A program made the translations under genes and the position numbers. From a virus, in the IMG/VR virus record IMGVR_UViG_3300013094_000123, positions 1-39,505 of that record: a DNA stretch of 39,505 bases; one strand, given 5' to 3'. The notes under the pieces are model-generated. The model saw only the letters and a list, made by a program, of their open reading frames with translations. It was not told where the DNA came from and did not search any database. Of this stretch, positions 2,364-34,841 are shown one piece after another (within the stretch, counting starts at the first letter, position 1; each line of letters starts with the position of its first letter).

Positions 2364-2842
2364 TGTCAGTTGCCAAAGTATTAATTCCAGACCAAGAATG
2401 GTTGATCACTGATCGCCAAACAAAAATTGGTAGTATTGCTAAAAATAAAAAAGGATATTTGTTTTTACACAAAGGACAAGCGGTTAATATTAATGATATT
2501 AACGAAATAAAAAATCAATTTGGTATTGCGTTGTTTGAAGAAAGTATCAAGAATAATACAAAGAAAAAAATCAAACCTACAACATATAGTATCTACGATT
2601 ACCCTTGTCGTTCAGAACCCTATGACCCTATCTATTCTGTAAAACAAAAGTTACCGCTGTTTGCCAAAAGTGCTAAAAGTAAGAGTCAGTATTGTGCAGG
2701 ACACTATATTATTAGATTTCGTAAAGGTTGGGCTAAAGCATTCTGTCCAAAACTTATCACTTTAGAACGATATCCTTATCACGGTCCATTTAAAACCGAA
2801 GAAGAGATGAAAACTATATTGGCACAAGTAAATAAAGAATGA
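2363..2842 (+). CDS. conserved phage protein of unknown function
   Basis: The 159-aa product is basic and soluble, with no recognised catalytic motif. The first 50 residues form a small beta-rich region (IPDQEWLITDRQTKIGSIAK), followed by a Lys-rich linker and a C-terminal domain with SIYDYPCRSEPYDP and two further cysteines in KSKSQYCAGHYIIRF and AKAFCPKLITL. The scattered cysteines do not form an obvious zinc motif. The start overlaps the exonuclease stop (TAATG) and the end overlaps the next gene as ATGA, so it sits in a translationally coupled replication cluster. It resembles unknown proteins found near RNase H in other marine T4-like phages, but that is from memory. Confidence 0.75.
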   Translation: MSVAKVLIPDQEWLITDRQTKIGSIAKNKKGYLFLHKGQAVNINDINEIKNQFGIALFEESIKNNTKKKIKPTTYSIYDYPCRSEPYDPIYSVKQKLPLFAKSAKSKSQYCAGHYIIRFRKGWAKAFCPKLITLERYPYHGPFKTEEEMKTILAQVNKE

Positions 2843-3057
2843 AACAGCTAAACACATTACCCATAGAAGATTTCTTAGATAAGGCTCGTATTGCCATCAA
2901 AAGCAATCAAAAAAGCCTCACTTTGAGCATAAAAGAGGTCACAGATTTACAAAATAGCCTAAGTATTGTAATGACTAGATTAACTGGGGATATGGAAAAA
3001 TACATTTCTTCAGCACAACCGGATATAGAAATCAAAATTGACGGTGGAAAATTCTAA
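2839..3057 (+). CDS. small protein of unknown function
   Basis: This short 72-aa protein starts in an ATGA overlap with the preceding gene. It is predicted to be mostly helical from residue 8 to 58, with spaced Ile/Leu/Val (DKARIAIKSNQKSLTLSIKEVTDLQNSLSIV), and ends in a short charged tail. A coiled-coil or helical hairpin partner protein is plausible. No family was recognised. The coupled start and the absence of competing frames support it as real. Confidence 0.65.
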   Translation: MKQLNTLPIEDFLDKARIAIKSNQKSLTLSIKEVTDLQNSLSIVMTRLTGDMEKYISSAQPDIEIKIDGGKF

Positions 3058-3065
3058 TTTTATCG

Positions 3066-3073
3066 CTAAATAT
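3066..3073 (+). promoter_or_regulatory. candidate phage late promoter (CTAAATAT)
   Basis: The octamer CTAAATAT resembles the T4-type late promoter core TATAAATA. It sits in a 15-nt string, TTTATCGCTAAATAT (3059-3073), that recurs exactly on the minus strand in front of the baseplate block (33834-33848). That repetition is the main evidence that it is functional. Start of transcription would be expected around 3079-3081, just upstream of the ribosome binding site of the 3102 gene. Confidence 0.6.
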
Positions 3074-3100
3074 ATACGCACTAAATTCGGAGCGTATATA
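3071..3100 (+). promoter_or_regulatory. RNA hairpin over the ribosome binding site of the 3102 gene
   Basis: The arms TATATACGC (3071-3079) and GCGTATATA (3092-3100) are a perfect 9-bp inverted repeat around a 12-nt loop. The ribosome binding site GGAG (3089-3092) lies at the loop/stem edge, and the stem runs to one base before the ATG at 3102. A transcript from upstream would fold over the initiation site. A transcript begun at the overlapping late promoter would lack the left arm and stay open. Confidence 0.65.
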
Positions 3101-3101
3101 A

Positions 3102-3401
3102 ATGAGTCGTCCAAAGCCAACTATATTATTAGAAATTACAAATAAAAAGACCTACAAAACCGAACAAGTTTTGGATGCTGAAGCTATTTGGGCAGTTTTT
3201 TATAAAGATCGTCCAATTAATCTAAAAACATCAAGTGTTGTTGTACAACAACTAGGTCCAAAATATAAAAAAGTTAGTTTCTCAAATTCCGGACATGCTT
3301 TTAATCTTGCTGAAAAACTCAACAAAATGTTCAATTCCCAGGACTTCAGTGTCTACAAGTTGGTCACGGGAGAAAAAATAAACAATGAGCCTCAAGAGTG
3401 A
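3102..3401 (+). CDS. small protein of unknown function, probably late-expressed
   Basis: The product is a 99-aa basic soluble protein. It reads as a compact alpha/beta domain: a strand (TILLEITNK), a helix around LDAEAIWAVFYKD, further strands (SVVVQQLGPKYKKVSFSN) and a helix (AFNLAEKLNKMF). No family was recognised. It is the first gene after a gap in an otherwise overlapping cluster, and that gap holds a late-type promoter and a hairpin over its ribosome binding site. Expression is therefore inferred to be mainly late, unlike its left-hand neighbours. Its 3' end overlaps the next gene by 17 nt. Confidence 0.7.
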   Translation: MSRPKPTILLEITNKKTYKTEQVLDAEAIWAVFYKDRPINLKTSSVVVQQLGPKYKKVSFSNSGHAFNLAEKLNKMFNSQDFSVYKLVTGEKINNEPQE

Positions 3402-3765
3402 TGTTACTCGTAGTGTATTAGAAATATTACGTCCTAATGATGTAGATAAATTATACAATGGGGCACTTAAATCTTGGTGGTTTAGCACCAGAAAAAAAGA
3501 TCGTGGCGGATTACGTTTAACCAAATTAGGCTTTGAATGTTTTCTTAAAGCCGAAATTAAAGAATATAAAATAAAATTCGAACAACCAATTGAACCAACA
3601 AACCAATTAATCATTTGGTTAGATCATTATATTGATTGTCCATTTTATTTAGGTTCAAAAGAAATCTATGTGTTCAGCGAAAGCATGGCAATACAACTAG
3701 TGTTGTTTGGTGGCAACATTTACAAATATGGTCAAGCCCGGCAAGAAAGTCTAAAATCTAGTTGA
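3385..3765 (+). CDS. conserved phage protein of unknown function
   Basis: The protein is 126 aa. It begins with a helical segment (SDVTRSVLEILRPNDVDKLYNG), followed by a WWFSTRKKDRGGLRLTKLGF motif with a basic patch and a hydrophobic C-terminal half, LIIWLDHYIDCPFYLG. The first half looks like a winged-helix or other small DNA-binding fold, but I cannot assign a family. The ATG at 3385 sits inside the preceding gene (17-nt overlap) with GGGAG at 3368-3372 as the likely ribosome binding site. Its stop TGA overlaps the -35 box of the next promoter, which shows how tightly the region is packed. Confidence 0.7.
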   Translation: MSLKSDVTRSVLEILRPNDVDKLYNGALKSWWFSTRKKDRGGLRLTKLGFECFLKAEIKEYKIKFEQPIEPTNQLIIWLDHYIDCPFYLGSKEIYVFSESMAIQLVLFGGNIYKYGQARQESLKSS

Positions 3766-3790
3766 CAGTTCGCAAAATCCCTTGTATAAT
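3762..3790 (+). promoter_or_regulatory. sigma70-type promoter upstream of the AAA+ gene
   Basis: TTGACA (3762-3767) and TATAAT (3785-3790) are separated by 17 nt, a perfect sigma70 consensus. The -10 box continues as TATAATATATACATATT (3785-3801), a 17-nt string repeated exactly at the promoter of the VWA gene (4981-4997). A leader of about 55 nt with no obvious strong ribosome binding site precedes the ATG at 3852. Confidence 0.88.
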
Positions 3791-3851: not shown

Positions 3852-4931
3852 ATGGCCGAGCACACATCTTCAAATCGTACCGTTAGCCCCAGCGAGGCTA
3901 AAAAGAGTTTACGTAAATGTATTAAAATTCAACGCCCTGTTTTTATGTGGGGTCCTCCCGGAATTGGTAAGTCCGACATTGTTAAACAAATTGGTGAAGA
4001 GCAAGAGCGTGAAGTTATTGACGTTCGTTTAAGTCTTTGGGAACCTACTGACATTAAAGGTATTCCATTCTATAACAGCACTTCCAACTCTATGGAATGG
4101 GCTCCTCCCGTTGAACTTCCACAAGATCCAGATTCAACAGCTATCTTGTTTTTAGATGAGTTAAATTCTGCAGCTCCTGCTACACAGGCAGCGGCTTTCC
4201 AATTGGTTCTTAATCGTCGTGTTGGCACATACAAATTGCCAAAAGGTGTTAGCATTGTGGCCGCAGGCAATAGAGAAGCTGACAAAGGCGTTACTTATCG
4301 TATGCCAAGTCCATTGGCAAATCGTTTTGTACATTTGGAATTGCGTACAGACTATGAAGATTGGTTACAATGGGCTACCACAAATCGTTTACACGAACAG
4401 GTTGTAGGCTATTTAGGCTTTGCCAAACAAGATTTATACGACTTTGATCCAAAATCTAGTTCACGTAGTTTTGCCACTCCACGTAGTTGGTCATTTGTCA
4501 GTGACTTGTTAGGCGATGACGATTTGGGAGAAGGCACACTAACTGATTTGGTTGCTGGTGCTATCGGCGAAGGACTTGCTGTTAAGTTTATGGCACACCG
4601 TAAGGTTGCCAAACAGATGCCCAAACCAGAAGATATTTTGGAAGGCAAAGTTAAAAAATCCAACATCAAAGAAATTTCAGCGATGTATAGTTTGGCCGTT
4701 AGTATGTGTTACGAACTCCAAACTGCCAATCAAAAGAAAGTCAATAATTGGGATTCAATGGCAGATAACTTTTTTGGCTTTATGATGGATAATTTCCCAA
4801 CTGAGCTGGTTGTGATGGGTGCGAAAGTAGCCCTCACCAATTATCAACTTCCGTTTGATGCATCCAAACTTAAAAACTTTGATCGTTTCCATGATCAATA
4901 CGGCAAATACATTATTTCAGCAATGGAATAA
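3852..4931 (+). CDS. MoxR-type AAA+ ATPase
   Basis: This 359-aa AAA+ ATPase shows Walker A GPPGIGKS (34-41), Walker B AILFLDELN (97-105), sensor-1 asparagine in IVAAGN (N140) and a likely arginine finger in PLANRF (R158). The arrangement is that of MoxR-family ATPases, which act as hexameric remodelling machines on VWA-domain partners (for example RavA with ViaA). The C-terminal third is helical and lacks a protease or nuclease domain. The next gene encodes a VWA/metallopeptidase-like protein, the expected partner. It has its own consensus promoter and an intrinsic terminator directly after its stop, so its dosage is set separately from the partner. A role in the phage cycle (chaperone, host takeover or counter-defence) is inference only. 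Confidence 0.85.
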   Translation: MAEHTSSNRTVSPSEAKKSLRKCIKIQRPVFMWGPPGIGKSDIVKQIGEEQEREVIDVRLSLWEPTDIKGIPFYNSTSNSMEWAPPVELPQDPDSTAILFLDELNSAAPATQAAAFQLVLNRRVGTYKLPKGVSIVAAGNREADKGVTYRMPSPLANRFVHLELRTDYEDWLQWATTNRLHEQVVGYLGFAKQDLYDFDPKSSSRSFATPRSWSFVSDLLGDDDLGEGTLTDLVAGAIGEGLAVKFMAHRKVAKQMPKPEDILEGKVKKSNIKEISAMYSLAVSMCYELQTANQKKVNNWDSMADNFFGFMMDNFPTELVVMGAKVALTNYQLPFDASKLKNFDRFHDQYGKYIISAME

Positions 4932-4957: not shown

Positions 4958-4986
4958 TTGACAATAATTTAAATATCATGTATAAT
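4958..4986 (+). promoter_or_regulatory. sigma70-type promoter upstream of the VWA gene
   Basis: TTGACA (4958-4963), a 17-nt spacer and TATAAT (4981-4986) again match the sigma70 consensus perfectly. The initially transcribed stretch TATAATATATACATATT is identical to that of the preceding AAA+ promoter, while the spacers differ. The ribosome binding site is AGGAG at 5008-5012, before the ATG at 5019. Confidence 0.88.
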
Positions 4987-5018: not shown

Positions 5019-6269
5019 ATGGCAACAATGAAGCAAGAACGTGTTCGTAAGTTTGAGAAAAAAGAATTTACGGCTTCAGAAAAAAACAAAATCGTAGAAA
5101 AATTAGTAACAGCAAGAGTCGGATTGTTATTGCGTCATCCATTTTTTGGTAATTTGGCTACACGTTTAAAACTAATCGATGCCACAGATTGGTTGCCTAC
5201 ATTAGCCACAGATGGTCGTAACTTTTATTATAATAATGATTTTGTAAATCGACTCACCGCCAAAGAAGCAGAGTTTGGATTTGCTCACGAAGTATTACAT
5301 AATGTGTTTGATCACATGGGACGCCGTGAAAATAGAGATCCAAAATTATCAAACATTGCCGCAGACTATGCTGTCAATCAAATCCTAAAAGATGAGCGTA
5401 TTGGTGAAGTGCCAAACTGGATTCAAATCTTCCAAGATAACAAATATCGCGGTATGAGTTATGAAGAGATCTACGATGACATTATGCAAAATGCTGAAAA
5501 GATTGATTTTTCCAGTTTAGGTGAATTGTTAGACGAACACCTAGACGGCGAAGGTGATGACGGTGACGGCGAAGACGGTGAAGGCAATCAAGAAGGCAAA
5601 GGTCGTCCAAAACTTACAGCAGAAGAAAAGAAAGCTATCCGCGATGAGATCAAAGAAGCCATGGTAGCCGCGGCACAGAGTGCCGGAGCAGGCCGTGTTC
5701 CAGCAGGTGTTCAACGTATGATCAAAGATCTTACAGAACCCAAGATGGACTGGCGTCAATTGTTGCGTATGAGTATCCAAAGCATTGTTAAAAGTAATTT
5801 TAGTTTTAGTCGTCCAAATCGTAAAAGTCAACATTGCGGTGCTGTATTACCAGGACTTATGAATGAAGAAACGATTGATGTTAGTGTAGCAATTGACATG
5901 AGTGGGAGTATTAGTGACAAACAGGCCAATGATTTTATCAGCGAAGTCAAAGGTATCATGGACGAGTATACAGACTTTAAATTAGACATTTGGTGCTTTG
6001 ATACCGATGTATATAATTATCAACAGTTTAGTATGGATAATTCTGGAGACATTTCTTTGTATCAAGTCAAAGGCGGTGGTGGTACAGATTTTGATGCCAA
6101 TTATCGCTTTATGAAAGACAACGACATAGTGCCTAAAAAGTTTATTATGTTTACAGATGGATATCCATGCGGAAGTTGGGGAGATGAGGATTATTGCGAT
6201 ACATTGTTTATCATCCACGGTGATGACAGCATAATTTCTCCCTTCGGTCAAACTGCACATTATAAATAA
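5019..6269 (+). CDS. putative metallopeptidase / VWA-like protein (DUF2201 type)
   Basis: The protein (416 aa) has two recognisable parts. Residues about 25-130 resemble the putative metallopeptidase domain paired with VWA in DUF2201-type proteins, with a zinc motif AHEVLH (H90, E91, H94) and possible third ligands H99 or D116 (AADYAVN). An acidic Asp/Glu/Gly linker (about 177-190) and a Lys/Glu-rich helix follow. The C-terminal part is a VWA fold with a MIDAS: D293-M-S-G-S297, T356-D357 in GGGGTDF, and D380 in FTDGYP. VWA proteins of this kind are partners of MoxR ATPases, and the AAA+ gene lies just upstream. Both metal sites look intact, so the protein may be an active peptidase or a metal-dependent adaptor. 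The substrate is unknown. Confidence 0.82.
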   Translation: MATMKQERVRKFEKKEFTASEKNKIVEKLVTARVGLLLRHPFFGNLATRLKLIDATDWLPTLATDGRNFYYNNDFVNRLTAKEAEFGFAHEVLHNVFDHMGRRENRDPKLSNIAADYAVNQILKDERIGEVPNWIQIFQDNKYRGMSYEEIYDDIMQNAEKIDFSSLGELLDEHLDGEGDDGDGEDGEGNQEGKGRPKLTAEEKKAIRDEIKEAMVAAAQSAGAGRVPAGVQRMIKDLTEPKMDWRQLLRMSIQSIVKSNFSFSRPNRKSQHCGAVLPGLMNEETIDVSVAIDMSGSISDKQANDFISEVKGIMDEYTDFKLDIWCFDTDVYNYQQFSMDNSGDISLYQVKGGGGTDFDANYRFMKDNDIVPKKFIMFTDGYPCGSWGDEDYCDTLFIIHGDDSIISPFGQTAHYK

Positions 6270-6284: not shown

Positions 6285-6581
6285 ATGAGTTTAAGTAGAG
6301 GTCAGGTCAATCCGTTAGGTGTATTGGAATTAAGACAGTTAGATTTTATTCCAGAACATTTTACTAAATTGACCATAGAGCGTAATGTTCGACTCGAATT
6401 ATTGAACAGTTGGATTAACTACAATTTAAATAGTAGGTATTCAGTTAAAGAATCAATTATTGTAAATCAAAGTAATAAAATAATTGAAGTTTACGAAATA
6501 GGTATAGAAGACCCTAAAGAAGTTACTATGCTAACAATTGGATGCCCGTACTTACACCAAACAAATAAGGAAATATATTAA
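6285..6581 (+). CDS. small protein of unknown function
   Basis: The product is a 98-aa soluble protein with no motif I recognise. It has an N-terminal segment (RGQVNPLGVLELRQLDFIPEHF), a helical centre (NVRLELLNSWINYNLNSRY) and a beta-rich end. It starts 15 nt after the VWA stop, with TAGGTAG as a weak ribosome binding site. Its TAA stop abuts the next ATG directly, so it is probably on the same message as the VWA gene. A link to the AAA+/VWA pair is possible but unsupported beyond position. Confidence 0.65.
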   Translation: MSLSRGQVNPLGVLELRQLDFIPEHFTKLTIERNVRLELLNSWINYNLNSRYSVKESIIVNQSNKIIEVYEIGIEDPKEVTMLTIGCPYLHQTNKEIY

Positions 6582-9166: not shown

Positions 9167-10762
9167 TTAATAACCGATTGCTATCCAACTAACAGGAGTA
9201 GTTCCCGAAGCAGTTTCGTCTCCAAACGCTGTTAGTGTAAAAGATAATATAGGACCAGCTCCTCTGTATCCAGCTGCCGACGTATTAGCCGTTGATCCAC
9301 TCTCTCCCACTGTATATTGTTCTGTGCCTACATAAAAACATTGGTTAGGAAATGGTATGGCAAAATTTACTTGTCCGGTACTGTAATTAGAAGGTAAGTC
9401 TTGTCCCCATTGAATAATTAAACCGGTAGTTCCGTTTTTATACCATCCAGGTAAAACACTAAGGTCGGGAGAACAAGTATCTGCTGTGCCAGGACCTGGT
9501 ACACCTTGCGTTCCTTGAGGTCCTTGATTTCCCTGCGGGCCTGGATTACCTTGAGGCCCGATTGGTCCTTGATTACCTGTAAGACCAATTGGACCCTGAT
9601 TACCTTGTGGGCCTACACCTTGTGGACCTTGTGGACCTTGTGGACCTATGCCTTGTGGACCAATTGGACCTTGTGGACCTTGTGGACCTATGCCTTGTGG
9701 ACCACTGGGACCTTGAGGGCCTTGTGGACCAACTTTAGTAGATACAAGACCTTTAATAGATGCTATTGTGAATGAGTTTGTACCATCACTTATAATGCCC
9801 TGTCCTTGAACAACTATTCCTTGAGCATTAACTGTTAAAATTGGATTAGTTTGTCCACTAACACCTGTGGCTAATTGAATTTGTATAACACCACCAGTGG
9901 TACTGTTTAATAATATACCATCATCTAATACTTTGGCCAGTTGTACATATTGTGGATTACCAAACGCAGAATTACCAGTGTATAAAACTACACCATCTCG
10001 GCCAGACCATCCAATTTGGTTATTGTTATCGTCGGCCAGCCATTTGACATATCCAGTAATTAATTCGCCTTGCCCTGGAACATTATTATCTTTTCTTAAA
10101 AAATCACTACCAGAATAAATGGTTCCGCCAACTACTAAATTATCGGCAGCATTGGCTGTGCCATTTAAAGTATAACCGGGTGTTGTTGATATATTAATTC
10201 CTGGATAAATTGTGTCAAATCCAGCAAATGTATTGTCGTATGGATTTATAACCGGAGTAAATGTCGCAGTTGACAATATGGCAACTGATATTCCTTCAAC
10301 TTTTCCAACTATTATTGAATGTACATTTCCCGCGGTATCGGACACTTGATCTACCGAATACATTCCTGTATTGCTGGTCGAAGTAGATCCAATAGTAATC
10401 CATGTATTATTACCAAAAATACTTAATTGATTCGTGGCTGTATTGACCCAGATAGCACCGGGTGTAGACACTGCTGGTGTTGTGCTTTGTTGATACACAT
10501 TACTAGGACTTGCCCAATAGAGTCCATCAAATACTTTCAAACTTCTCGCGGTGGGATCATACCATAACTGTCCAGTTATTGGTTGAGTAGGAGTACCAGA
10601 GGCAAAATTTTCCAGTATGCTTACAAAATTTTGAGCAATCTTTTGTGCGTAATTTGGATATCCTCTACCAACTAAACTCAAATCAGTAGAAAAATCATCC
10701 AGCCCTGGGGGCATGTCTGGTACAGTTATAACACCTGAAGAATAATTTATTGTAAATGGCAT
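9167..10762 (-). CDS. tail fibre with collagen-like shaft and gp53-like tip
   Basis: The protein (531 aa) looks like a complete receptor-binding fibre. Residues 1-115 share the N-terminal module and GQLWYD repeats of the neighbouring 241-aa protein and probably attach it to the virion. A beta-rich middle follows. Residues about 344-427 are a collagen-like Gly-X-Y shaft rich in GPQ, interrupted regularly by GIGPQ or GVGPQ steps. The C-terminal 100 residues carry the IQWG...FPIPFPNQC...SWIAIGY pattern of the gp53-like tail-fibre tip domain, including the terminal AIGY found in that family. It lies downstream of the baseplate genes, where fibre genes are expected. The repeats in the shaft DNA could change its length. 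Host receptor unknown. Confidence 0.75.
9484..9735 (-). repeat. tandem repeats encoding the collagen-like shaft
   Basis: The DNA consists of repeated 9-nt units of the type CCTTGTGGA (minus-strand coding Gly-Pro-Gln) with longer near-identical blocks. The pattern CCTTGTGGACCTATGCCTTG occurs at about 9634 and again at about 9679. Such repeats are prone to slippage in multiples of 9 nt, which keeps frame and changes shaft length. Confidence 0.75.
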
Positions 10763-11439: not shown

Positions 11440-14400
11440 TTAGCTTTCTCCATAGTAGTGGTTTGTGGGCAACTCGGCCGGACTTTCTTGTATAAATCTA
11501 GCGGCTATAGATGCGCTGTCAAACAACGACACGCTAACTGTGGGATCAACCCATTGCTGAGCCACGTTGACTTCTTGTTTTACCATTGTCAATTTGACAT
11601 CGTTTTCTATACCGCCCACGATATTTAAACTTAATGTTTGTGTGTTTTGATCAACAGTTATTGAATATTCTGCTGGAACATAATTTAAACCCCTATATAC
11701 AAATCCATTTACTGAATCTGTTGAGTTAGAGTTTTCTTGTACCCACACTTGGTTGGTTGCTGAAACAATATAAGCAATGCCTACATCTGTTGATGCTGGC
11801 AAGGAATTAACAATAGTTAACGTATTGATATACTCAGGACTATCAAAAGATTGTGTAGTATCAAACACAACAATAGGGTCTTTTCTTAACAATCTACCAC
11901 CGTAATAAATTGCCAACTCATCGGTAGGATTTAATGCTACAGATGGCAATACAGGGCTGTATTGTAATGTAATACCATCAGACACAGCTGAAGGAGTTCC
12001 AAATGATGTAGCAGTTACAAAAGCAGATTTGTTGATTATATAATTATTGGTTGTGGTGTTTACAAATATTGTTTGGTTAAACACATTATCAGAGTAAGGA
12101 ATACTTTGTAAGTACCCTTGATCTATTACTCGTGTGTTGACAGCACATACATCTTTGGGACCGGTTCCTAATGTTCCTCTACGTAAATTTGTCAAAGAAT
12201 TTCCAACAATTTTCAAAAACTCAATGCGTTCTCCGTCAATAATAATGACTCCAGGAATATTTTTACTTGGAATTGCTGGTGATAATACTGTGGGATCAGC
12301 TACTTGTATACTGGTAGAAGTACTGTACAAAGTGGCTGTTAAGTAAGTTGTGTTCTTTTTGCTTAGACGTTTGAAAGCAGTTCTACCTAACATATCGTTG
12401 AATATTCTGTATCCCAATACTTTGTTGGTATTTTTAACAAATACAATAACTTCAATGATATCTGTTGATGATACATTTAATGTTTCGCTGATCTGTACAG
12501 TCTGCTGATCCTCCAACATAACATATTCAATATCTCTAATCAATGGAATCCCATTCAATATCACCCACATGTACTCATCATCGACTATTGGTGCGCTTAG
12601 AGTAACACGCCTCGGGGTTACATTGTTAGTAAAGACTTGTGGATTGATCAATGCTCCAGTTGGATCTATATAACTAACTACACGAACATTACCAGTGATA
12701 GGACTATTAAATGTTAGTGTTGATCCATAAACAGTATAATCTCCAGCATAGGTACCTGCAGGAGGTGTTATGATTTTATATCCTGTTCCTGTGTTAACTT
12801 CTACAATAACTTGTGTAGCAGTTGTATCGTTGTCAACAACTGGCGGTGAGTACAACAGTGTCAACGAAGTTGCGTTGGTCACGGTAGAGTACTGTTCTCT
12901 TAGTTCATTGAATTTCTGAATAGTTGTTCCAAAGAACCAAGAGTTAATGGTACTAGAAGTTGTTGGATTCAAATTGTATACAAATACTGTGGCTTGGCCT
13001 GTTTGAGTAGTTGCTCCAGTAGGGTCATTGTCTCCTCCCAGCTCATAATACATATCAGAAACGGAATTAGTTACATGGAACCCTAATGGTCTTCTTCCAA
13101 TCCACATTCCGTTAACGTGAACACTTGCGGTGTTGATTGAAATTATTCCAGACAAACTTGCCACTGATCCATTGGTAACATTGTATACTGTGCTAACTTC
13201 GTTGTCAATCAATCCAACTTTATCTAGATTTCTAGATCCGCCTTTGCCCATAATTGTGTAACCAACTATTGTTTCTTTTGATTGAGGTGGAATAATTACA
13301 CGATTGTTAGCCCAGTCCATAGAATAATATGGCTGATCAACCATTTGTGTAGTTATAGTAGCAGTATACATTAACAACTGACGATTAGCCACAACACGCA
13401 TACTGGCAATAGATGTAGGAATAGCAACAATAGTATTGTAATTAATAGTCGATGTATTTGCCATAACTTCAAAATAGTTTGATGTTATAGCAGGAGATCC
13501 TTCACTGCTAATAGTGTATACATTCAATGCCAAAGAATCTGAAGTGTGTCCTGGAACTAATTCTTCGGGAGCATAACTATAATCAACGGATATGAATCCG
13601 TTTCCGGCATCAATAATTCTTTCTTCAGGATTAATACCCTGAGCACTGATTAACTGTCCAGGAAGTATTTCACCACCATCTAATGATGTATCTAAAATAG
13701 TAGCATTAAGATCAACGGACCAAAACTCCACAACTGATGCCATAGGAATAGTCAACAATGTTGAAGTATTAACTGTTATTGCCTGTGTTCCTATGTCAAT
13801 TGAAATAACAGAAGCTGCGTTAGAATTAAAATATGCAGTTGACCCATTGATTACATTAACATGCTGTCCCACATTTACACCAGAAATGTTTTCAACTGTA
13901 AATGTTGTCCAGGTACCTCCTATAGAGCTAGATGGAGAAGTGCTTACTGTACTTGTATAATATCCAATATCTTCAGCAAACCCACCAAACCCGTAGTTAC
14001 TAACTGTGCTTGTGGTTCCTCGTCTATTGTCCTGAGTCCAGTTGTAACCCCAATTTATGTTGTAATCAAATGGCAACGATTCAATAACTGTTCCAGGAAA
14101 TTCTAAGCCAGACATTACCTGTGTAGCGGTATTTCCAGGCATACCTGAGTCAGGAGCATAATAATTTTCTAACCTTTCAATAGCACTTAATAATTCAATA
14201 TTTTTAGCATACGTAATTTTTACTATTTTTCCAGCAGGCGGAATATAATTTATAAATGATAATTTTGAATATTTTTTACGATAACCATTTATTGTATCTG
14301 TGTAGTAAATAATTTGATAATCGGAACTTACTACATAATTTCCATCAACTGACACAGATATTGTAGCTGGATCTGTGTTAGCAACCCAGGTTAATACAAA

Positions 14401-17400
14401 TTCTACATTTATTCCATTACAATAAAATGAATCTTGTACAGGCAACAGGCCAATTTCATTTTGTCTACTGTACCTATCAAATTTAACCCCAATTGTATTG
14501 GTTCTGACTTTTCCATTATACAACTCAGCATATGCCGAGGCAGCAAGTAATCCTGGTATAAGAGGAGTGATTATTTCTACGGTAGGTGCCTTGGTATAAC
14601 CAGAGCCAGGGTCTGTAACCACAATTTGCGATATTTTTCCAGCAGTAACATAGGCAACAGCAGAAGCACCAGACCCGGTATCTCCAGATTGAGCAGTTAT
14701 AATAACAGTAGGTGGTGAAGTGTAATTGGTTCCAGGATTGGTCACAATGATACTACCAACTTCATAGGTATAATTATCTGCCCAATCTTTCCAAGGATAC
14801 GAATCCAACAATGGATTACCTATGTCAACTGACCCATACGTTTGTGTAAGTGTATTGAATACCGCAGGTCTATCAAAATCTGTGAAGTGACTATTAGTAG
14901 GATCTGTTACTGTGTAATTAGTAGTGTATCCCCTAACCTGAGTATGATAAGGCTTTACTTCTGCCAGGTAGTTTTCAAAATATGTACTATCTTGTAATTT
15001 ATAAACAGGAGGTTGATTTAACTCGCCAGCATTGTTTACAACATTAATAAAACTTGTTTTAAATGCCCAATCTAGCATTTTTTGTTCGCTTAATGCGTAT
15101 CTTACTGCGGCAAAGAAAAATAAATTCCATTGTGCTTTTAAATCATTTATAAACAAATCATTTTTTAATGCTGTTAATATATAACGTAACTCAGTGACAG
15201 GAATTATTCCTGTACTAAGTTGTATTGTTCCATTTTGTTTATAAACCAAATTATAAGTTGAATTAAAATTTCCTACAACATCAGCATCAACTTTTTCTAA
15301 AATTATATAATTTCCATCTCCAGAATTTTGAATTTTAACATACTGTCCAGGAACTATATTGTAGGTAAAATCTAACTGATATGTTTCGCTGAACACATAG
15401 GCATTGTCTTTATGAGGGTTATAATCGGTGCTAGACCAATCAGCATAACTCCAGTATTCAGCAGTGTTATAGGAAGATACTCTAACAAAATTCCATTTTT
15501 CAGATGTCCACTGATATTCAGCCCAACTATTATTATGGTTAGGATCTACTAGAACAATAACTGTATAAGGCCTAATTGACAATGTTGGTACTGTTACATA
15601 TCCAGTGCCTGCATTGTTTATAACAACGTTATTAATCGAACCGTTAGAATCAAGTGTTACTGATACGCTAGCTGGTATTCTAGACATGCCGCTTACTTGA
15701 ACTGTAGGAACTGTTTTATATCCATAACCTGGATTGTTGATTGTTACTAAATCAATACGTCCATTGACAATTGTACAACTAATTTCTGCTTGTACAAATT
15801 TGCTTGTATCAATTAAACTTAATGATTCATAATCCTCAACAGTTTGATCATAGTTATAAGAAGTATATGAATCTTGAGCATTCAAATTAGCAAAACTATA
15901 ATTTCCTGTAATTTGATTTTCGTTGAATACAGTATTGGCAAATTCTATTAAATTTCGTAATGCTTCTGCTTGATTTACAAACATACTTTGTCTTGGTCGT
16001 ATTTCAACGCCATAGGCATTTCGACTAGACAGAGTAGGATCAGGAACAAGATTTCCAACTGTGTCTTGACCAATTAAACTATCAAATAATTTTTTATCTA
16101 GCAAAGTAGTCGGTGTACTTGTGGCAACACCTTCTTGTAACAATAACCATTCTGTATGTTTTTCAATTTGGCTGTCAATAACATCAGTACAAACATTCAA
16201 ATGTATTCTACTATCGATTAAATTTCCTGCTACATTTGCTAAAATAACAGCATTATTAGAAATTAACGAAGCATACATGTAACCATACCCTGTTGGATCT
16301 TCAATTAAACTTGCTACTTGTGCTGCATCTAATCTACGATTTTTTACATTAGGAACAAGCACTTTATTTTTAACCCAATAATAATACTTGTTAGTAAACG
16401 CATTTGTAATAGGATTATATATTTCAGCTATTGATACAACAGAGTCATCGGGATACTTTGGTTGTCCGCTCACACCCTGTGTTAATCCTGCTGCCGTATC
16501 AGCCAAAATTGCCCATTCACTAGGCAAATATTCTGTACCTACCCATTCGTAAATATCAACAGATGACCCTGGAAATAAATTTCCCCATTGATTTTTTCTA
16601 AAAGCAAGGTCGCCTTGCTCGTACCATACATATTTTATAGTACTTAAATCCCACCATAAACTACCTACTTGTTTATCCAGCCAGTTGGTATCAGCATCAA
16701 CTATCACTGTAGAAGTTCCGGTTGAATATGTTGCTGGATCAAAATAAGATTTATAAGCTATTTCTTCTTCAGCAGGTCCTGCTATTTTTCCTTTTAATGG
16801 ATCAATTACATCAAGGTAATCAACTACCTGATCAGCAAAAGTATCTATCAAAGACACTTTTCTAATTTGATCAACTGATACTAAAGTGTCTTGTTGCCTT
16901 AGTGTATACCAGCTATCAGCTGTAGGATCAATTTTATCAAACCTATAAATTGATGCGTTGGTTATTCCATTACCAGCAGGAGCACCAACATAAATGCTTT
17001 CATCAACTACTAGGCTTCTTCCAAAATAACTATTTGCTGTTCCGTCTGTTACTTGATCTGCTAATCTAAATTGTCCATTATTAGATTTTTTTACATAAAC
17101 ATATGCTGTTCCTGCGTTGGCTAGATTATCATAAAAATATGTAGAACTAGAATCAAAATCCACCGATCCTTTGTCAAACGAATCTGTGATTAATAAATTA
17201 GTTCCAATTGCTGTAACAACCAATGTATTAGATACTGTGTTGATATCTACAGCACTACCAAATTTCATTCCTGCGCCAGGAACAGGATTTGTAATTGTTG
17301 AATAATGAGTGTATGTATTATTAACAGAAGTTCTATAATATACATCAACTTTTCCATATGATTGATCTATATTTCTAACATCAGGACTTCCAATAAACAA

Positions 17401-20400
17401 ATAATCACCTGAATACGATACTGCCAACGATTTTCCAAAATGTATGTCTGATCCTGATATTATTTGAGATGGAGAACTAAAATTAGTGGCTGTGTAAATT
17501 GCTACATATCCAGCATTGTAGGATCCAACTGCGATAACTTCTGCATTGTTTGATCCCTTTATTGTGTATCCCCATTGAGATCCTGTAGATACAGACACAG
17601 GCGGTGTTATAACTGTACCAGTAGTAATATTAACAGTAGATGATGACGCATCTACTGTATAAACATGTACACTTCCTCGATCATTTGTGCCCAACGCTCC
17701 GACCAATAATAAATTACCAGACGCATAAATGCTTGATCCAAATCGTTCATACGTAGTAGGAACATTACTTAAAATAGTATGTTGTAATGTTCCTACAGTT
17801 GTAGAAGAATTAATTGAAATAACATTTACTTGTCCTGTTTGTGTGTTAATCCCTGGCAATCCAACAAAAACTAATCCGTGATTTGTTTGTTGATATTCAA
17901 TATTACCATAAGCCAACCCGCGTCCAAAATCTGTAGAAGTTGTGATACCCACAGGAGCATATTGAAATTTAAATTCTAATCCGTCTTGGGTGTCTTGATA
18001 AACAGACAATGCTCCCCGAATTGGATCAGAGGCAATGACAATATTGTCTCCAGGATTTTTAACTAGATATTTTCCTAATTGATGTATTCCGCTTACGCTA
18101 GTAGATGTGCTGGTATAATTGTTAATTTTTTCATAAACAGTCCATTGTCCTGTGCCATTGTTGTCAATCCATAATTTTGTACCATACGGGAATTTTAAAA
18201 AGACAGGATCTGACAGTGCTGTGTCAAATGTAACAAATTTTGTACTAACAAATTCAAACAATAGTCCTGGTGATGCCAGCACAGCATTGTTTATATAGGT
18301 TAGAGAAGATGAGACTGAAAATTCATTAAGAGATGGAACCTCTATAACCTTGTACACTCCGTCAACTTGACTGTTAAATTGTGTTACATAAACAACAGAG
18401 CCTACAGATAAATTATGGAATGTGTCGGTGGTAAATGTTATACTGGTTGCCGGACTACTAACATAAACTCCTACAACACCGGCTGTATTTTTTTCATATC
18501 GTAAAACATCCCAATCACCTGAGTCTGTGAATCCCAACCAAACAGTGTTACCGTCATTTAAATTTTGATTTGCGGCAATTGATAATAAATCTGTTGTATT
18601 ATATGCCGTATAATTTACATCATCAATTCTAGCATACCCAGCTGTGCTTAATTTAAAATCATCTTGGTTGACAGTAAACATTGTTGCAGCATCAAAGCCG
18701 GCAGGTGCTATGGCCAAATCTTGTGTTAAAGAATAGTACACCAACTCATTTTTGTCAGACGGTACAGTATCAACAACATTTATTATCTGTGGGTTTTCAA
18801 TAAATGTTCCTTCGACTAGAGGAATTTCAATTTCTTGATAAGTTGAATAAGATCCATAGTTTCCTACACGGAAAGCCCATTCTTCATAAAAATCAAGTTG
18901 TCCTTGTAAGTTATATACCGAGGCTTTGGCCAGTTTTGTTATAGCATTACGTGTACCTTTTTCTCTAATATAACCTTGATAAAATTTGTATTGAGCAATA
19001 GGATCTGTAAAAATGTTATTCAAATATGTGCGAGGTGTATATCCTGTTAGATGCTGTGCCATTTTTTCTTGACCAACATCAAAGTTATCAATATCTAAAC
19101 TATAAAAATCTTCAAATTGGTTGATTTTATAATCAAAATTAGGCAATAGATCTGCTACAGGCTTTGATCCTAATAAAATCCAACCATCAGAAATATTAAA
19201 ACTCTGTGTTCCTGTTATGTTAGATTTTGCTGAATAATAGTTTCCATTAAATTGAACTACATCGCCATACTGAAAATCTTTATACGATTGCCAGGTATAA
19301 ATTTGAGCCGTATCATAAATGAACCCAGGACTAAAATAATCTCCATTCCAGTTGGCTGTTCTAAAACCAATTAGTTTCATTCGCTTTTGTCTATAACCGG
19401 CTTGAATATCAAATATTATATCGTTGAACATTGTAACATTGTTAAACACCATTACATGTTCTTTTTGTACACTGTTTAATCTAGCAAAATATATCGAGTT
19501 AGGCGTATTGTTTTTGGTAGATATTGTACAAATTCCGTCTTGTCTATTGACCGATAATTCTTGTTGCGGAAATGGTTTTCCATTTACCTGTAGCAAACTG
19601 TACTCATAAAAACTATCAAATATATTATCAACAACAGTATTTGGTAAAGTAAATTTAATTTGATCAGAGAAAGGACTCAAAGTAATGACACTATTGTCTG
19701 CCCAATTTTGTGTTGTCCAATATAAAAATTCTCTAGCACTTAAATCCCAATCTAGAATAGAATTTAAATTGCTATCAAAATTATCAAATATAAATCCCTG
19801 TGTTTCTAACCACTGTCCATATCCTTTGATAAAATCGTAAACCTGTTGTTGTGTATCAAACTCAGCACCATAGGGGATCTGTGAAATATTAGGAGAATAT
19901 TGAATAACAGAATTAACAGTAACTCCGCCTGTTATAGGTAAAGAAGGCAATTTAGCATATAATGTTGAATCAAAAGTTGTCTCGGCACTATGACTAACCT
20001 TTACTCTGTAAAAAACACCATTGTATAAAACAATTTGTCCTTGCTGATAAAATATGCCAGTTGCTGCAGAATTTGCGGTAGTAATGTCAATAGAATTTAA
20101 AGGTGTAGAAAATGTAGAAGTCCCCGGTGCCCATGTAACATAAGATTCGGATATACCGCCGATAGTAATTGCTGGTGTAGATATATTCCTAACAGGCAAG
20201 TAAACATTAAAATACGGTTGCTGGCTATCATATCCTTTGACTACAAAAACACCATTGGATTTTTGTACAATAATTCCGCTAATTGGTGTTGACTGAATAG
20301 GGTTACTGACATTTAGTATTAAATTGTAATCCTCTGGTGGTAAGATTGCTCCAGGAATTATTGATGTAGGGTTATAAGCATCAATAATTACTTGTATTTT

Positions 20401-23400
20401 ATTTTTGCTAACAAATCCTCCAACTTTATAAAACAATCTTACATCTAAATAAGTCAATTTATCAATTAAATTTTGTATATATGTATTAATTCTTTGTTTG
20501 CCAATTTCACAAACATACACACTGTACCCGCTTGTTAGTGTTGAGACATCCAAAGGAACAACTATGTTTTTAATGTTCAGGAAACTATTTTCTTGACCAT
20601 AAACCCATTGCCCTGCAGCATTCAACAGCATCCTCGAAGGATCATACATCACAGCGGAATAAGACGCAGGGTTTGTTAAAGCCAACAATCTTTGTATAGC
20701 AAATGGATAATAACTACTACGACGCCACGCATTTTCTGTTGGTCCAATATCTCCAAACGTCCAATTTTGACTCACAGTTGATGGAGTTACATTACTGGCC
20801 AAATATATAGGATTTCGCAACGTGCCATCGCTGGTCACAGGTATAATATTAGATAGCCCTGGACGAGCATAAAACACATCAATGCCTGTTCTTGGTCCCT
20901 GTTGTATTCGTCCTTGTTCTAAATCTTGCCATAATACAATGTTAAAAGATGTATAAGGAGCTTCTCCGTATATAGAAGTCCACCAATCAGGCATTTCTGA
21001 AAAACCTAACATTTCCCAAGGAGTTAAATTTGGAGTATCAGTATCATATAGATACTTGTAAATATTTCTCCAACTACCTTTTAGATCTATGCCAAATTCA
21101 TTGTTGTACCCGCCGGTGTAATTCCAGGTTAGATAATTGGCTGAATCAAATGTAGAATTAACGGTGCCATCTACACCCATTGTACCAGTCCATCGTATAA
21201 AATCTGCTTGAAGAATCTGATTAATTTCTTCAATAGAATAATCAACTGTTCTAAATGCTCCGGGCATTATTTGAGCAACATCAAATAAACTGTATTTGTA
21301 TTCAGCTTTAATATTATTATAGATTCGTTTTTCTAATTCTAGAATTATAGCATCGCGGTAGTCATCAAATGCAACTGTTATACTACCGTCGTGACCTTTA
21401 ATAACTTTTTGAGGGCCCGAAGCATATGTATTATCAATATAAATTTCAGGTCGAAATTTAGGATATAATCCTAACTTGCTCGGAGTAGGAGGAATATAGC
21501 ACCCTGCTGTGCTGGTATAATCTTCGATAACAATTACATCATTAAACGCAAGTGGTGTTAAAAATTCTACTCCAGCATCTGCAGTTAAAAATACATAGTC
21601 AGTGCCTAAAATTTGCTGAATTCCATTAATATATACCAACACTGATCGCAAACTTAAAACACTAGGATTAAATTCAGTTGTTATAGGATAGATAGTATTA
21701 CTAGGGCTAGTTACAGTCCATGTTCTTGTAATTTTATCTTGTCCATAGGCCAACATGTCTGACAACGACCAAGGAAATTGTTGACTTTTATTTGCGTTAA
21801 AACTGGTTATTATAGAGTCAACAGTTTCAACAACCGCAGATTGATTGTCAAATTCAGACAACTTCTGTAAAAATGACATCTTAAATTCATTATACTGATC
21901 AGCGGCTCGATGTAATGCATCAACTACATTGTTCTCTTTGTCACCAATAAAAAATTGTGAAAATACAATTGGATTGAAATTTGAAATTAATCTTGTTCCG
22001 TACTGAGATGGATTGGCAATATCTCTTAAATTGTCTCCTGTATAATCGCTATCTCTTTTTAACATAGTAGATAGATGATCAGATAACTCACTTAAGGTAA
22101 AACTAGATATGTTGCCATTTAACGGGTTGTTTGTAAGTCCTAATGGCGAATCATAAACACCATCATTTTCAGGTATTGGATATGCCGCTGATAACTGCCA
22201 TATATTAATAAATGTATCATTGCTTAGTAATTTTAAAAATCCCTGATTAATAGAAACAGTATCTGTAATGTTATTTGAAATAATAGAAAATGTGTCAGTG
22301 GCAAAATAATTTTCAAACAAATAACTTCCAACTAGTCCAGTATTTTTATATGTCAGTGGAAATCCCAACACTGAATCGGCAGTGCCTGTACCAATTTTAT
22401 AACCAAACACTGGTGTTCCAGCAAAAGTTGAATTGTAGTAAAGTGTATTGCTGTAACTATTACCTTGACTGTCAAATAAATCAAATAAAGGACTTTGATT
22501 TAATTTGTTATGTTGTTGTCCCATGATCCACATGGTTCCATTATACCACCAACTTGTTCCGCCTATAGTATTTCCAAGACCGACAATAGTCGATGCTCCA
22601 GAAAATGGCTCGTGATCAGCTGGCTGGGTTAATGTAATTCTATACTCGCCGTCGACATTAATAAATTTAACTTGGAATATTTTTCCATTTACCAAAGGAT
22701 CTGGGTCTGCATTAAAAATAATGCGGCTACCGTCTTGTACTTTTACTCCATCAATATAAAACCAAATAGCACCTTCAACAGTTTTAAAAACATCAGTAGT
22801 AACTGTATCAATAAAACTTACAGGAGCAATTCCAACAGATCCAAAATTATATAATTTTAAGTCTGGTTGAAATTCTATAATAGGTCTTGATGCCTTATAG
22901 GCATCGGGATAGAAAGGAGTAACACCATTTGCCTGCGCACTTAATGTAATAATATCTCTATGTACCCATCGATTATATCTTGACCAAGGATTTGAATCTT
23001 GACTAGCACGATTAATTGTAATGTATTCAGGTGTTAAAGGTAATTTTTTAAAATTATCAAACGGATATTCATCAAATGGATTTGTATCAAACCCATCATT
23101 GTACTCTGTGGCGATAATTTGATTAGATGTTAATACAGAATAATCAACTAATTTAATTGATACACCTACACCTTCTACAAAAAACTCACGATCTTGATAT
23201 ACAGCAGGAGCTACAGTATTATCAAATTTAATTTTCATTCCGTTTGATAATAAAATTCCTGAAGATAACGTATAAGAAGTTGATCCTATAATATCTAATT
23301 CTACATTAACATTTCCAATTGTGATAGCACTTGGGCCAGTTATTAACCAAAAATAATTTTGAAAATTTACAAATTTATCCCAATCAATTCTTGGATCATA

Positions 23401-23754
23401 AGAATAAAATTTAGTTCTATATATTCTATCAAAATTATCAACTAATCCGCCTTGAACAGAAATTTCATTTGTTAAATCATCTATGCCAACTGCTTTTGTT
23501 ATATTTCCAGAAGTATCATTGATAATTAACGCCGGATCTAATTGATAATTCTTTCTTAATTCTGTGGTTTCTGTTATATAAACATCAGTTGCTGCATTAT
23601 ATGTAGCAGTGGCCGTACTACCTATATACCCACTGATACGCTCTAGCTGAGGCGGCTGAATTAACTGATCAATTGTACTTGATAAAAATTTTGAATTTTT
23701 ATCTGTTCTAAAAAATTCAGGTAATAAATTTATTGACTTAATGCTTTTTGCCAT
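11440..23754 (-). CDS. giant baseplate protein in gp7 position (4104 aa)
   Basis: The gene fills about 31% of the window and follows gp6 with a 2-nt gap, the place of gp7 (baseplate wedge, 1032 aa in T4). The N-terminus has LPEFFRTDKNSKFLSSTIDQLIQPPQ followed by an IDWDKFVNFQNYFWL stretch. These I associate, from memory, with very large baseplate-block proteins of aquatic myoviruses. Residues about 1940-2275 contain repeats with (F/W)G(S/R/K)S and LFIGSPD/VGAPAG motifs, typical of FG-GAP integrin-like beta-propellers. Four GxGY..xPTV-type repeats lie near 2675, 2720, 3013 and 3055. The rest is Ser/Thr/Asn-rich and beta-rich, as in fibres. It has no signal peptide or membrane segment. It may merge a gp7 core with fibre- or adhesin-like additions. 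Frame is intact throughout. The gp7 equivalence rests on position and is moderately sure. Confidence 0.7.
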   Translation of the reverse strand: MAKSIKSINLLPEFFRTDKNSKFLSSTIDQLIQPPQLERISGYIGSTATATYNAATDVYITETTELRKNYQLDPALIINDTSGNITKAVGIDDLTNEISVQGGLVDNFDRIYRTKFYSYDPRIDWDKFVNFQNYFWLITGPSAITIGNVNVELDIIGSTSYTLSSGILLSNGMKIKFDNTVAPAVYQDREFFVEGVGVSIKLVDYSVLTSNQIIATEYNDGFDTNPFDEYPFDNFKKLPLTPEYITINRASQDSNPWSRYNRWVHRDIITLSAQANGVTPFYPDAYKASRPIIEFQPDLKLYNFGSVGIAPVSFIDTVTTDVFKTVEGAIWFYIDGVKVQDGSRIIFNADPDPLVNGKIFQVKFINVDGEYRITLTQPADHEPFSGASTIVGLGNTIGGTSWWYNGTMWIMGQQHNKLNQSPLFDLFDSQGNSYSNTLYYNSTFAGTPVFGYKIGTGTADSVLGFPLTYKNTGLVGSYLFENYFATDTFSIISNNITDTVSINQGFLKLLSNDTFINIWQLSAAYPIPENDGVYDSPLGLTNNPLNGNISSFTLSELSDHLSTMLKRDSDYTGDNLRDIANPSQYGTRLISNFNPIVFSQFFIGDKENNVVDALHRAADQYNEFKMSFLQKLSEFDNQSAVVETVDSIITSFNANKSQQFPWSLSDMLAYGQDKITRTWTVTSPSNTIYPITTEFNPSVLSLRSVLVYINGIQQILGTDYVFLTADAGVEFLTPLAFNDVIVIEDYTSTAGCYIPPTPSKLGLYPKFRPEIYIDNTYASGPQKVIKGHDGSITVAFDDYRDAIILELEKRIYNNIKAEYKYSLFDVAQIMPGAFRTVDYSIEEINQILQADFIRWTGTMGVDGTVNSTFDSANYLTWNYTGGYNNEFGIDLKGSWRNIYKYLYDTDTPNLTPWEMLGFSEMPDWWTSIYGEAPYTSFNIVLWQDLEQGRIQQGPRTGIDVFYARPGLSNIIPVTSDGTLRNPIYLASNVTPSTVSQNWTFGDIGPTENAWRRSSYYPFAIQRLLALTNPASYSAVMYDPSRMLLNAAGQWVYGQENSFLNIKNIVVPLDVSTLTSGYSVYVCEIGKQRINTYIQNLIDKLTYLDVRLFYKVGGFVSKNKIQVIIDAYNPTSIIPGAILPPEDYNLILNVSNPIQSTPISGIIVQKSNGVFVVKGYDSQQPYFNVYLPVRNISTPAITIGGISESYVTWAPGTSTFSTPLNSIDITTANSAATGIFYQQGQIVLYNGVFYRVKVSHSAETTFDSTLYAKLPSLPITGGVTVNSVIQYSPNISQIPYGAEFDTQQQVYDFIKGYGQWLETQGFIFDNFDSNLNSILDWDLSAREFLYWTTQNWADNSVITLSPFSDQIKFTLPNTVVDNIFDSFYEYSLLQVNGKPFPQQELSVNRQDGICTISTKNNTPNSIYFARLNSVQKEHVMVFNNVTMFNDIIFDIQAGYRQKRMKLIGFRTANWNGDYFSPGFIYDTAQIYTWQSYKDFQYGDVVQFNGNYYSAKSNITGTQSFNISDGWILLGSKPVADLLPNFDYKINQFEDFYSLDIDNFDVGQEKMAQHLTGYTPRTYLNNIFTDPIAQYKFYQGYIREKGTRNAITKLAKASVYNLQGQLDFYEEWAFRVGNYGSYSTYQEIEIPLVEGTFIENPQIINVVDTVPSDKNELVYYSLTQDLAIAPAGFDAATMFTVNQDDFKLSTAGYARIDDVNYTAYNTTDLLSIAANQNLNDGNTVWLGFTDSGDWDVLRYEKNTAGVVGVYVSSPATSITFTTDTFHNLSVGSVVYVTQFNSQVDGVYKVIEVPSLNEFSVSSSLTYINNAVLASPGLLFEFVSTKFVTFDTALSDPVFLKFPYGTKLWIDNNGTGQWTVYEKINNYTSTSTSVSGIHQLGKYLVKNPGDNIVIASDPIRGALSVYQDTQDGLEFKFQYAPVGITTSTDFGRGLAYGNIEYQQTNHGLVFVGLPGINTQTGQVNVISINSSTTVGTLQHTILSNVPTTYERFGSSIYASGNLLLVGALGTNDRGSVHVYTVDASSSTVNITTGTVITPPVSVSTGSQWGYTIKGSNNAEVIAVGSYNAGYVAIYTATNFSSPSQIISGSDIHFGKSLAVSYSGDYLFIGSPDVRNIDQSYGKVDVYYRTSVNNTYTHYSTITNPVPGAGMKFGSAVDINTVSNTLVVTAIGTNLLITDSFDKGSVDFDSSSTYFYDNLANAGTAYVYVKKSNNGQFRLADQVTDGTANSYFGRSLVVDESIYVGAPAGNGITNASIYRFDKIDPTADSWYTLRQQDTLVSVDQIRKVSLIDTFADQVVDYLDVIDPLKGKIAGPAEEEIAYKSYFDPATYSTGTSTVIVDADTNWLDKQVGSLWWDLSTIKYVWYEQGDLAFRKNQWGNLFPGSSVDIYEWVGTEYLPSEWAILADTAAGLTQGVSGQPKYPDDSVVSIAEIYNPITNAFTNKYYYWVKNKVLVPNVKNRRLDAAQVASLIEDPTGYGYMYASLISNNAVILANVAGNLIDSRIHLNVCTDVIDSQIEKHTEWLLLQEGVATSTPTTLLDKKLFDSLIGQDTVGNLVPDPTLSSRNAYGVEIRPRQSMFVNQAEALRNLIEFANTVFNENQITGNYSFANLNAQDSYTSYNYDQTVEDYESLSLIDTSKFVQAEISCTIVNGRIDLVTINNPGYGYKTVPTVQVSGMSRIPASVSVTLDSNGSINNVVINNAGTGYVTVPTLSIRPYTVIVLVDPNHNNSWAEYQWTSEKWNFVRVSSYNTAEYWSYADWSSTDYNPHKDNAYVFSETYQLDFTYNIVPGQYVKIQNSGDGNYIILEKVDADVVGNFNSTYNLVYKQNGTIQLSTGIIPVTELRYILTALKNDLFINDLKAQWNLFFFAAVRYALSEQKMLDWAFKTSFINVVNNAGELNQPPVYKLQDSTYFENYLAEVKPYHTQVRGYTTNYTVTDPTNSHFTDFDRPAVFNTLTQTYGSVDIGNPLLDSYPWKDWADNYTYEVGSIIVTNPGTNYTSPPTVIITAQSGDTGSGASAVAYVTAGKISQIVVTDPGSGYTKAPTVEIITPLIPGLLAASAYAELYNGKVRTNTIGVKFDRYSRQNEIGLLPVQDSFYCNGINVEFVLTWVANTDPATISVSVDGNYVVSSDYQIIYYTDTINGYRKKYSKLSFINYIPPAGKIVKITYAKNIELLSAIERLENYYAPDSGMPGNTATQVMSGLEFPGTVIESLPFDYNINWGYNWTQDNRRGTTSTVSNYGFGGFAEDIGYYTSTVSTSPSSSIGGTWTTFTVENISGVNVGQHVNVINGSTAYFNSNAASVISIDIGTQAITVNTSTLLTIPMASVVEFWSVDLNATILDTSLDGGEILPGQLISAQGINPEERIIDAGNGFISVDYSYAPEELVPGHTSDSLALNVYTISSEGSPAITSNYFEVMANTSTINYNTIVAIPTSIASMRVVANRQLLMYTATITTQMVDQPYYSMDWANNRVIIPPQSKETIVGYTIMGKGGSRNLDKVGLIDNEVSTVYNVTNGSVASLSGIISINTASVHVNGMWIGRRPLGFHVTNSVSDMYYELGGDNDPTGATTQTGQATVFVYNLNPTTSSTINSWFFGTTIQKFNELREQYSTVTNATSLTLLYSPPVVDNDTTATQVIVEVNTGTGYKIITPPAGTYAGDYTVYGSTLTFNSPITGNVRVVSYIDPTGALINPQVFTNNVTPRRVTLSAPIVDDEYMWVILNGIPLIRDIEYVMLEDQQTVQISETLNVSSTDIIEVIVFVKNTNKVLGYRIFNDMLGRTAFKRLSKKNTTYLTATLYSTSTSIQVADPTVLSPAIPSKNIPGVIIIDGERIEFLKIVGNSLTNLRRGTLGTGPKDVCAVNTRVIDQGYLQSIPYSDNVFNQTIFVNTTTNNYIINKSAFVTATSFGTPSAVSDGITLQYSPVLPSVALNPTDELAIYYGGRLLRKDPIVVFDTTQSFDSPEYINTLTIVNSLPASTDVGIAYIVSATNQVWVQENSNSTDSVNGFVYRGLNYVPAEYSITVDQNTQTLSLNIVGGIENDVKLTMVKQEVNVAQQWVDPTVSVSLFDSASIAARFIQESPAELPTNHYYGES

Positions 23755-33932: not shown

Positions 33933-34841
33933 ATGACGACACCAATCGCACTTCCAAGAAAAGTAAAATATCTCAACAACCGAGACCTCTTATTAGAAAT
34001 ACATCGTAGTAAATGTAGTTATTCTAGTTTTACAAAACCAGAATATAGTCAATACGATATTATACTCACAGATGTAAGTAAAATTAACATACGTACAGTA
34101 GCAGACGCCAAGCGTGCTCGTGCCAAACGTATTGGTCTACAGGCATTTGCCAAAGCAAGAGCAAATGGAGATAAAAAAGTCAAACTACTAGAGCTAACTC
34201 CCGACTACAAATCTATTCCCAAAACAGATGTGGTTATAAGAATTATGACTTTTGATCATATTCCCCTGTCTCCGGGACGTAAAAAGACAACCAAAACTCG
34301 TGCTGACAGTCACGATAAAGTTAACTTTCCTCCTTATCAACATTGGAAATACAATGACCAGGACGAGTTGATCTGTGTAGGTAAAAGTCATTGGAAAGGT
34401 GCCATTGATACTGGGATATTTTGTAAAGATCACGGACGTATCACAGAAAATCTAGGTAAAATGTTTATCAAATTGTCAGAGCGTTACGCACAGCGTAGCA
34501 ACTGGCGAGGATACACTTATGTTGACGAAATGAAAGGCCAGGCCATTCTACAGCTAAGTCAAATTGGTCTACAGTTTGATGAATCAAAGTCAGAAAATCC
34601 ATTTGCCTATTATACTGCCGCTGTTACAAATTCGTTTACTCGCATTCTTAACATTGAAAAGAAAAGTCAAAATATTCGAGATGACCTGCTAGAAGAAAAC
34701 GGTCTTACTCCCAGTATGACTCGACAGAACAGTCAAATCTATGCTTCTGAAATAGCACGCCAGGCTGAGATTTATAAAAATCTACGTATGCCAAAAAGCG
34801 AAGAAGTCGATGTCGACGAAGATGGAGAAGTTGAAGCATAA
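33933..34841 (+). CDS. 55: RNA polymerase sigma factor for late transcription, gp55
   Basis: The protein (302 aa) resembles gp55, the sigma factor that binds host RNA polymerase core and recognises the late promoter -10 core. The sigma-region-2-like part is in the second half: a helix with KMFIKLSERYAQRSNWRGYTYVDEMKGQAILQL (from about residue 172), then NPFAYYTAAVTNSFTRILNIEKKSQNIRDDLLEENGLTPS (about 221-260). T4 gp55 has 185 aa. This one has an N-terminal extension of roughly 120 residues, including a YLNNRDLLLEIHRSK start and a basic Lys/Arg-rich middle, and a short acidic C-terminal tail of the type that binds the sliding clamp in T4. It is transcribed divergently from the baseplate genes. 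Confidence 0.88.
   Translation: MTTPIALPRKVKYLNNRDLLLEIHRSKCSYSSFTKPEYSQYDIILTDVSKINIRTVADAKRARAKRIGLQAFAKARANGDKKVKLLELTPDYKSIPKTDVVIRIMTFDHIPLSPGRKKTTKTRADSHDKVNFPPYQHWKYNDQDELICVGKSHWKGAIDTGIFCKDHGRITENLGKMFIKLSERYAQRSNWRGYTYVDEMKGQAILQLSQIGLQFDESKSENPFAYYTAAVTNSFTRILNIEKKSQNIRDDLLEENGLTPSMTRQNSQIYASEIARQAEIYKNLRMPKSEEVDVDEDGEVEA

Follow-up and report, generated by a model that had tools for sequence, protein, structure and literature searches.

A probable T4-type translational lock, combining a late promoter with a hairpin over the ribosome site, upstream of a conserved jumbo-phage gene

How can a gene that is read by early transcription be kept from making its protein until late in infection? 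This question is raised by a short gap in a stretch of viral DNA of 39,505 nucleotides (IMG/VR record IMGVR_UViG_3300013094_000123), the whole of which is called the window here. In this gap, which precedes a gene for a 99-aa protein, a late-type promoter, an inverted repeat and a ribosome binding site are crowded together, and an original prediction made from the letters of the window proposed that the hairpin masks the ribosome site on early RNA while late transcription bypasses it. The features concerned are as follows.

2839-3057, + strand: 72-aa gene (open reading frame), 44 nt upstream of the 99-aa gene
3058-3101, + strand: intergenic gap of 44 nt between the 72-aa and 99-aa genes, which lie on the same strand
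3065-3072, + strand: late-promoter box GCTAAATA, a variant with C at -12, read from the sequence
3071-3079, + strand: left arm of the hairpin, TATATACGC, overlapping the end of the promoter box and covarying with the right arm (sequence and fold)
3078, + strand: predicted late transcript start, give or take about 1-2 bases, from T4 spacing
3089-3092, + strand: Shine-Dalgarno GGAG, paired in the predicted read-through RNA (computed fold)
3092-3100, + strand: right arm of the hairpin, GCGTATATA, stopping one base short of the ATG (sequence and fold)
3102-3401, + strand: 99-aa gene, start ATG at 3102, strongly conserved in related jumbo phages

The anatomy of the gap largely bears out what had been proposed. 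The two arms form a perfect inverted repeat with nine Watson-Crick pairs out of nine, and the computed fold adds pairing of CU at 3081-3082 with GG at 3089-3090, so that the GGAG, described as held by the hairpin, is almost wholly paired. The promoter octamer does overlap the left arm, with its position better read as 3065-3072 than as the proposed 3066-3073. The a/gC variant of the late box has been reported for Aeromonas phage Aeh1, and T4 late promoters place the box at -13 to -6 relative to the start (PMC2988020). Application of this spacing to the box in the window predicts a late start at about 3078, compared to 3080 in the original prediction.

The best reading, and in our judgement very probably the right one, is a T4-type translational lock to which late transcription is the key. 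Early RNA from upstream sigma-70 promoters (for example, that at 28-56) would run into the 99-aa gene, and in this RNA, pairing of the two arms would mask the GGAG and hem in the ATG, so that the gene would stay silent. Once the phage has produced its late sigma factor, RNA polymerase would begin at GCTAAATA, near base 3078, and the late RNA would lack seven of the nine left-arm bases, leaving the ribosome site open and the protein free to be made.

Folding of the two transcripts gave the difference that the original prediction had led one to expect: the full element of 42 nt folded at -10.5 kcal/mol (z -3.67, with one of 200 shuffles as good), and RNA beginning at base 3078 at -3.1 kcal/mol, no better than shuffles. 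In its 76-nt context, the fold was unremarkable (z -1.33). Counted across the window, neither CTAAATA (6 occurrences versus 11.7 expected) nor TATAAATA was enriched, and motif counts by themselves were rejected as evidence. Since the z score in context is only -1.33 and the motif is not enriched, one sequence by itself would prove little, and the weight of the argument rests on conservation and covariation in relatives.

The arrangement has well-studied counterparts. In the leader of T4 gene e (lysozyme), the left arm lies just behind the late box, the Shine-Dalgarno sequence lies in the stem and the late RNA is too short to fold (PMC3014915). The window shares this placement of box, arm and Shine-Dalgarno sequence with gene e, in which the box stands 32 nt before the start, and its late RNA would likewise be too short to fold; it differs from the T4 leader in gene, in phage lineage and in the number of late boxes, of which the T4 leader has two. 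Furthermore, the T4 e leader has been proven by experiment, whereas the leader in the window is known from sequence comparison. The same script was applied to T4 e (duplex -12.0 kcal/mol, spacing 32 nt) and to soc (-6.6 kcal/mol, 35 nt), and the proposed likeness to these leaders extends to their geometry. In T4 soc, 49, I-TevI/II/III and segB and in Aeh1 mobE, too, the ribosome site is closed by a hairpin whose left arm carries a late promoter (PMC2988022, PMC3014915). T4 late genes with such a lock sit on early or middle transcripts (PMC2988022), as is predicted for the 99-aa gene. Unlike those T4 and Aeh1 genes, the gene in the window is a conserved one that is neither a homing endonuclease nor a known capsid gene.

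The setting of the 99-aa gene in the window involves four further features.

28-56, + strand: perfect sigma-70 promoter (TTGACA-17-TATAAT) from which early read-through is predicted to come, 3 kb upstream of the 99-aa gene
3762-3790, + strand: perfect sigma-70 promoter ahead of a MoxR-type ATPase gene (promoter scan)
4958-4986, + strand: perfect sigma-70 promoter (TTGACA-17-TATAAT; promoter scan)
33933-34841, + strand: T4 gp55-type late sigma factor (PHROG phrog_12791, E 1.1e-87)

These three perfect sigma-70 promoters on the + strand compare to zero in ten shuffles of the window. With at most one mismatch, a counterpart of the first was found in 41 of the 52 relatives with enough sequence, and a counterpart of the second in 65 of 70. 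A search for terminators in the gap that precedes the 99-aa gene found none, and a weak terminator-like match further upstream, at 1928-1944, is at chance level; early read-through is therefore expected, and the 99-aa gene is expected to lie inside the predicted early transcription unit.

Several other observations were made in the window. The spacer of the promoter at 28-56 contains a late-box-like octamer, TCTAAATA, at 36-43. A MoxR-type ATPase and metallopeptidase-vWA pair lies at 3852-4931 and 5019-6269, and the perfect sigma-70 promoter ahead of each gene suggests that both are expressed early; for such pairs in jumbo phages, a role as virion-assembly chaperones has been proposed (PMC7824862). 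An exact TATAAATA with no hairpin lies in the final bases of the vWA gene (6261-6268), ahead of a 98-aa open reading frame at 6285, and a similar arrangement is found near 26067 in relative G008; this frame may be a late gene that sits in an early unit and has no lock. Elsewhere, a single frame of 4104 aa on the - strand (11440-23754) apparently encodes a giant tail-associated protein, a 531-aa frame (9167-10762) with a collagen-like GPQGPQG repeat region is probably a tail fibre, and a 142-aa frame (38999-39427) resembles a GIY-YIG endonuclease (YLITNLTTGRKYIGKK).

Relatives of the 99-aa gene are found by the hundreds in viral contigs (347 confirmed in one search and further ones in others), and the 15 cultured records all come from large phages, namely PA5oct and kin, Atu_ph07, Phosso and SCTP-2. 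Upstream of nearly all of them, the order is the same: TAAATA, stem, Shine-Dalgarno sequence in the loop and the end of the stem at the start codon. TAAATA lies within the last 70 nt upstream in 243 of 244 gene records, mostly 28-37 nt before the start, and in 46 of 53 distinct environmental elements a stem connects the position directly behind the promoter box with the start codon. The stem ends between 2 bases inside the start codon and 4 bases before it, and a same-strand upstream gene usually ends 28-65 nt ahead of the start. Across relatives, the mean fold is -8.2 kcal/mol for the full element and -1.4 kcal/mol for the predicted late RNA. As judged from sequence, the same hairpin and late-promoter design is retained in most of more than 240 related virus sequences. 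A gene conserved without its stem had been named as the outcome that would speak against the original prediction; in most relatives, the stem is kept, with compensatory changes.

While pairing is kept, the letters of the stem vary, from TATATACGC/GCGTATATA in the window to ATATGCGTAT/ATACGCATAT in marine relatives, and three relatives (L045, L060 and L074) have arms quite unlike either. These apparent stems of wholly different letters make the case for pairing even without statistics. A MAFFT alignment of the elements misplaced right arms, and an arm-swap test was used instead of its column pair counts. When each left arm of 54 representatives was tried with the right arms of unlike relatives, native arms gave -9.4 versus -4.6 kcal/mol (Wilcoxon p 7e-10), and pairing was also specific within the marine set (p 1e-5); kinship makes these sequences non-independent, and the p values are upper limits on confidence. 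In a column-based swap, 82.5% of cells were paired in native combinations compared to 73.5% in swapped ones (sd 0.9, maximum 75.8% in 300 swaps). Compensatory exchanges of A-T to G-C and of C-G to T-A occurred at positions -2, -1 and +2, and 40 of the 54 representatives beat dinucleotide shuffles at p < 0.05. One element with a misassigned TAAATA (L012) counts as weak in the arm-swap and upstream-gene counts and was omitted from the column test and the 53-element comparison. Marine relatives L172-L243 also conserve a CTACGTAGATAACT-like motif where the upstream gene ends, about 10-35 nt ahead of TAAATA; the idea that it is a second left arm was rejected, its covariation with the hairpin being not significant (p 0.16).

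The covariation also bears on what the inverted repeat might otherwise be. The palindrome sits at a promoter, and I-TevI, which represses its own late promoter, combines an operator with a hairpin (PMC2988022); the repeat could be a DNA operator at which a phage protein, possibly the product of the 99-aa gene, binds and represses transcription. Such an operator would keep its letters and spacing, whereas here the letters vary widely with pairing retained, the distance between the arms varies and the stem's 3' end follows the position of the start codon. We consider an operator very unlikely, and the covariation points to RNA pairing that blocks initiation.

It could also be argued that the extended late promoter (TAAATATATRCG) together with a good ribosome site accounts for all of the conservation, with the pairing incidental, as the left-arm sequence is well conserved in many relatives. 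The right arms, however, follow their own left arms, in the marine set as well, and other late-motif reading frames of the same genomes seldom have a hairpin. These other frames come from three large relatives, with 206, 167 and 355 kb of contig sequence, in which the late motif stands before virion genes and a hairpin is generally absent; among these genes, identified by reading the sequences, are one for a gp6-like baseplate protein and one probably for the tail sheath. A duplex at or below -7 kcal/mol was found in 46 of the 53 family elements versus 6 of 91 other late-motif frames (p 1e-17). Incidental pairing is thus scarcely credible.

Among the few other frames with a hairpin is the GH19-type endolysin of G010 (L283), with the leader GTTAAATATTTGCGTACAAGGAGGTACGCATG; a second endolysin (L284:1458-1503) has a long stem over the Shine-Dalgarno sequence with the late box in its loop, both identities having been assigned by reading the sequence. 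Like the window, these leaders combine a late box with a stem that masks the Shine-Dalgarno sequence, here before a lysis gene. Unlike the window, the L284 leader has its promoter in the loop and its left arm upstream of the promoter. Most other relatives of the GH19-type endolysin are without the arrangement. A lock on lysis genes is what T4 gene e would lead one to expect, with the G010 endolysin as its likely counterpart.

The relatives that depart from the common design concern a further reading. L060 and L074 have very strong stems and no Shine-Dalgarno sequence, and the late RNA of L060 would retain about half of its stem. Conserved stems near 5' ends can act in RNA processing or stability, and the hairpin might be such an element, cut by an RNase or protecting a 5' end, while the promoter by itself sets the timing; the part of the stem retained in L060 late RNA would fit this. 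Transcription from the predicted start, however, would leave out most of the left arm and with it the hairpin; moreover, the Rfam search gave no match and the stem regularly abuts the start codon. We give a processing or stability role only a slim chance. With a conserved and covarying stem, a predicted early-unit setting, a gp55-type sigma factor in the window and the geometry of T4 e and soc, the comparison supports the translational lock first proposed, by which we infer that the gene would be translated late.

Other exceptions were found. Pairing is weak in six diverged environmental elements (L026, L089, L092, L100, L179 and L188), and L127 is the sole record without TAAATA. The canonical hairpin is absent in three of the four cultured relatives. 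In two of the three, a hairpin resembling a terminator lies upstream instead: PA5oct lacks the hairpin and carries a strong terminator ahead of its late box, and in Phosso an upstream terminator-like stem is accompanied by no more than a long-range 7-bp stem. In SCTP-2, a hairpin falls short of the start codon, and the leader of Atu_ph07 forms a strong hairpin whose left arm contains the late box. It is suggestive, as an idea and not a result, that a terminator may have replaced the lock in PA5oct and Phosso.

What the protein does is approached from its control. PHROG and Pfam searches with the 99-aa protein gave no informative match, and neither a PDB sequence search nor a PDB fold comparison with the predicted structure (medium confidence, pLDDT 71) gave a credible one; megablast of the region against known phages found no match. 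Tentatively, and with the odds somewhat against it, the protein may be a conserved jumbo-phage factor that is harmful if made early, comparable to a lysis or takeover switch. If so, early harm would explain why selection has kept the lock in most environmental relatives, and the two cultured phages would seem to have swapped it for an upstream terminator-like hairpin.

What is new here is the gene, the lineage and the covariation; the mechanism itself was already known in T4. With covariation over dozens of distinct sequences, a mode of control described in T4 appears to extend to a distant, mostly uncultured lineage of jumbo phages. For a strongly conserved gene, it provides a firm prediction of timing, namely late expression only, and a hint of toxicity. 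Furthermore, the arrangement may serve as a simple signature for spotting late genes inside the early operons of metagenomic phages.
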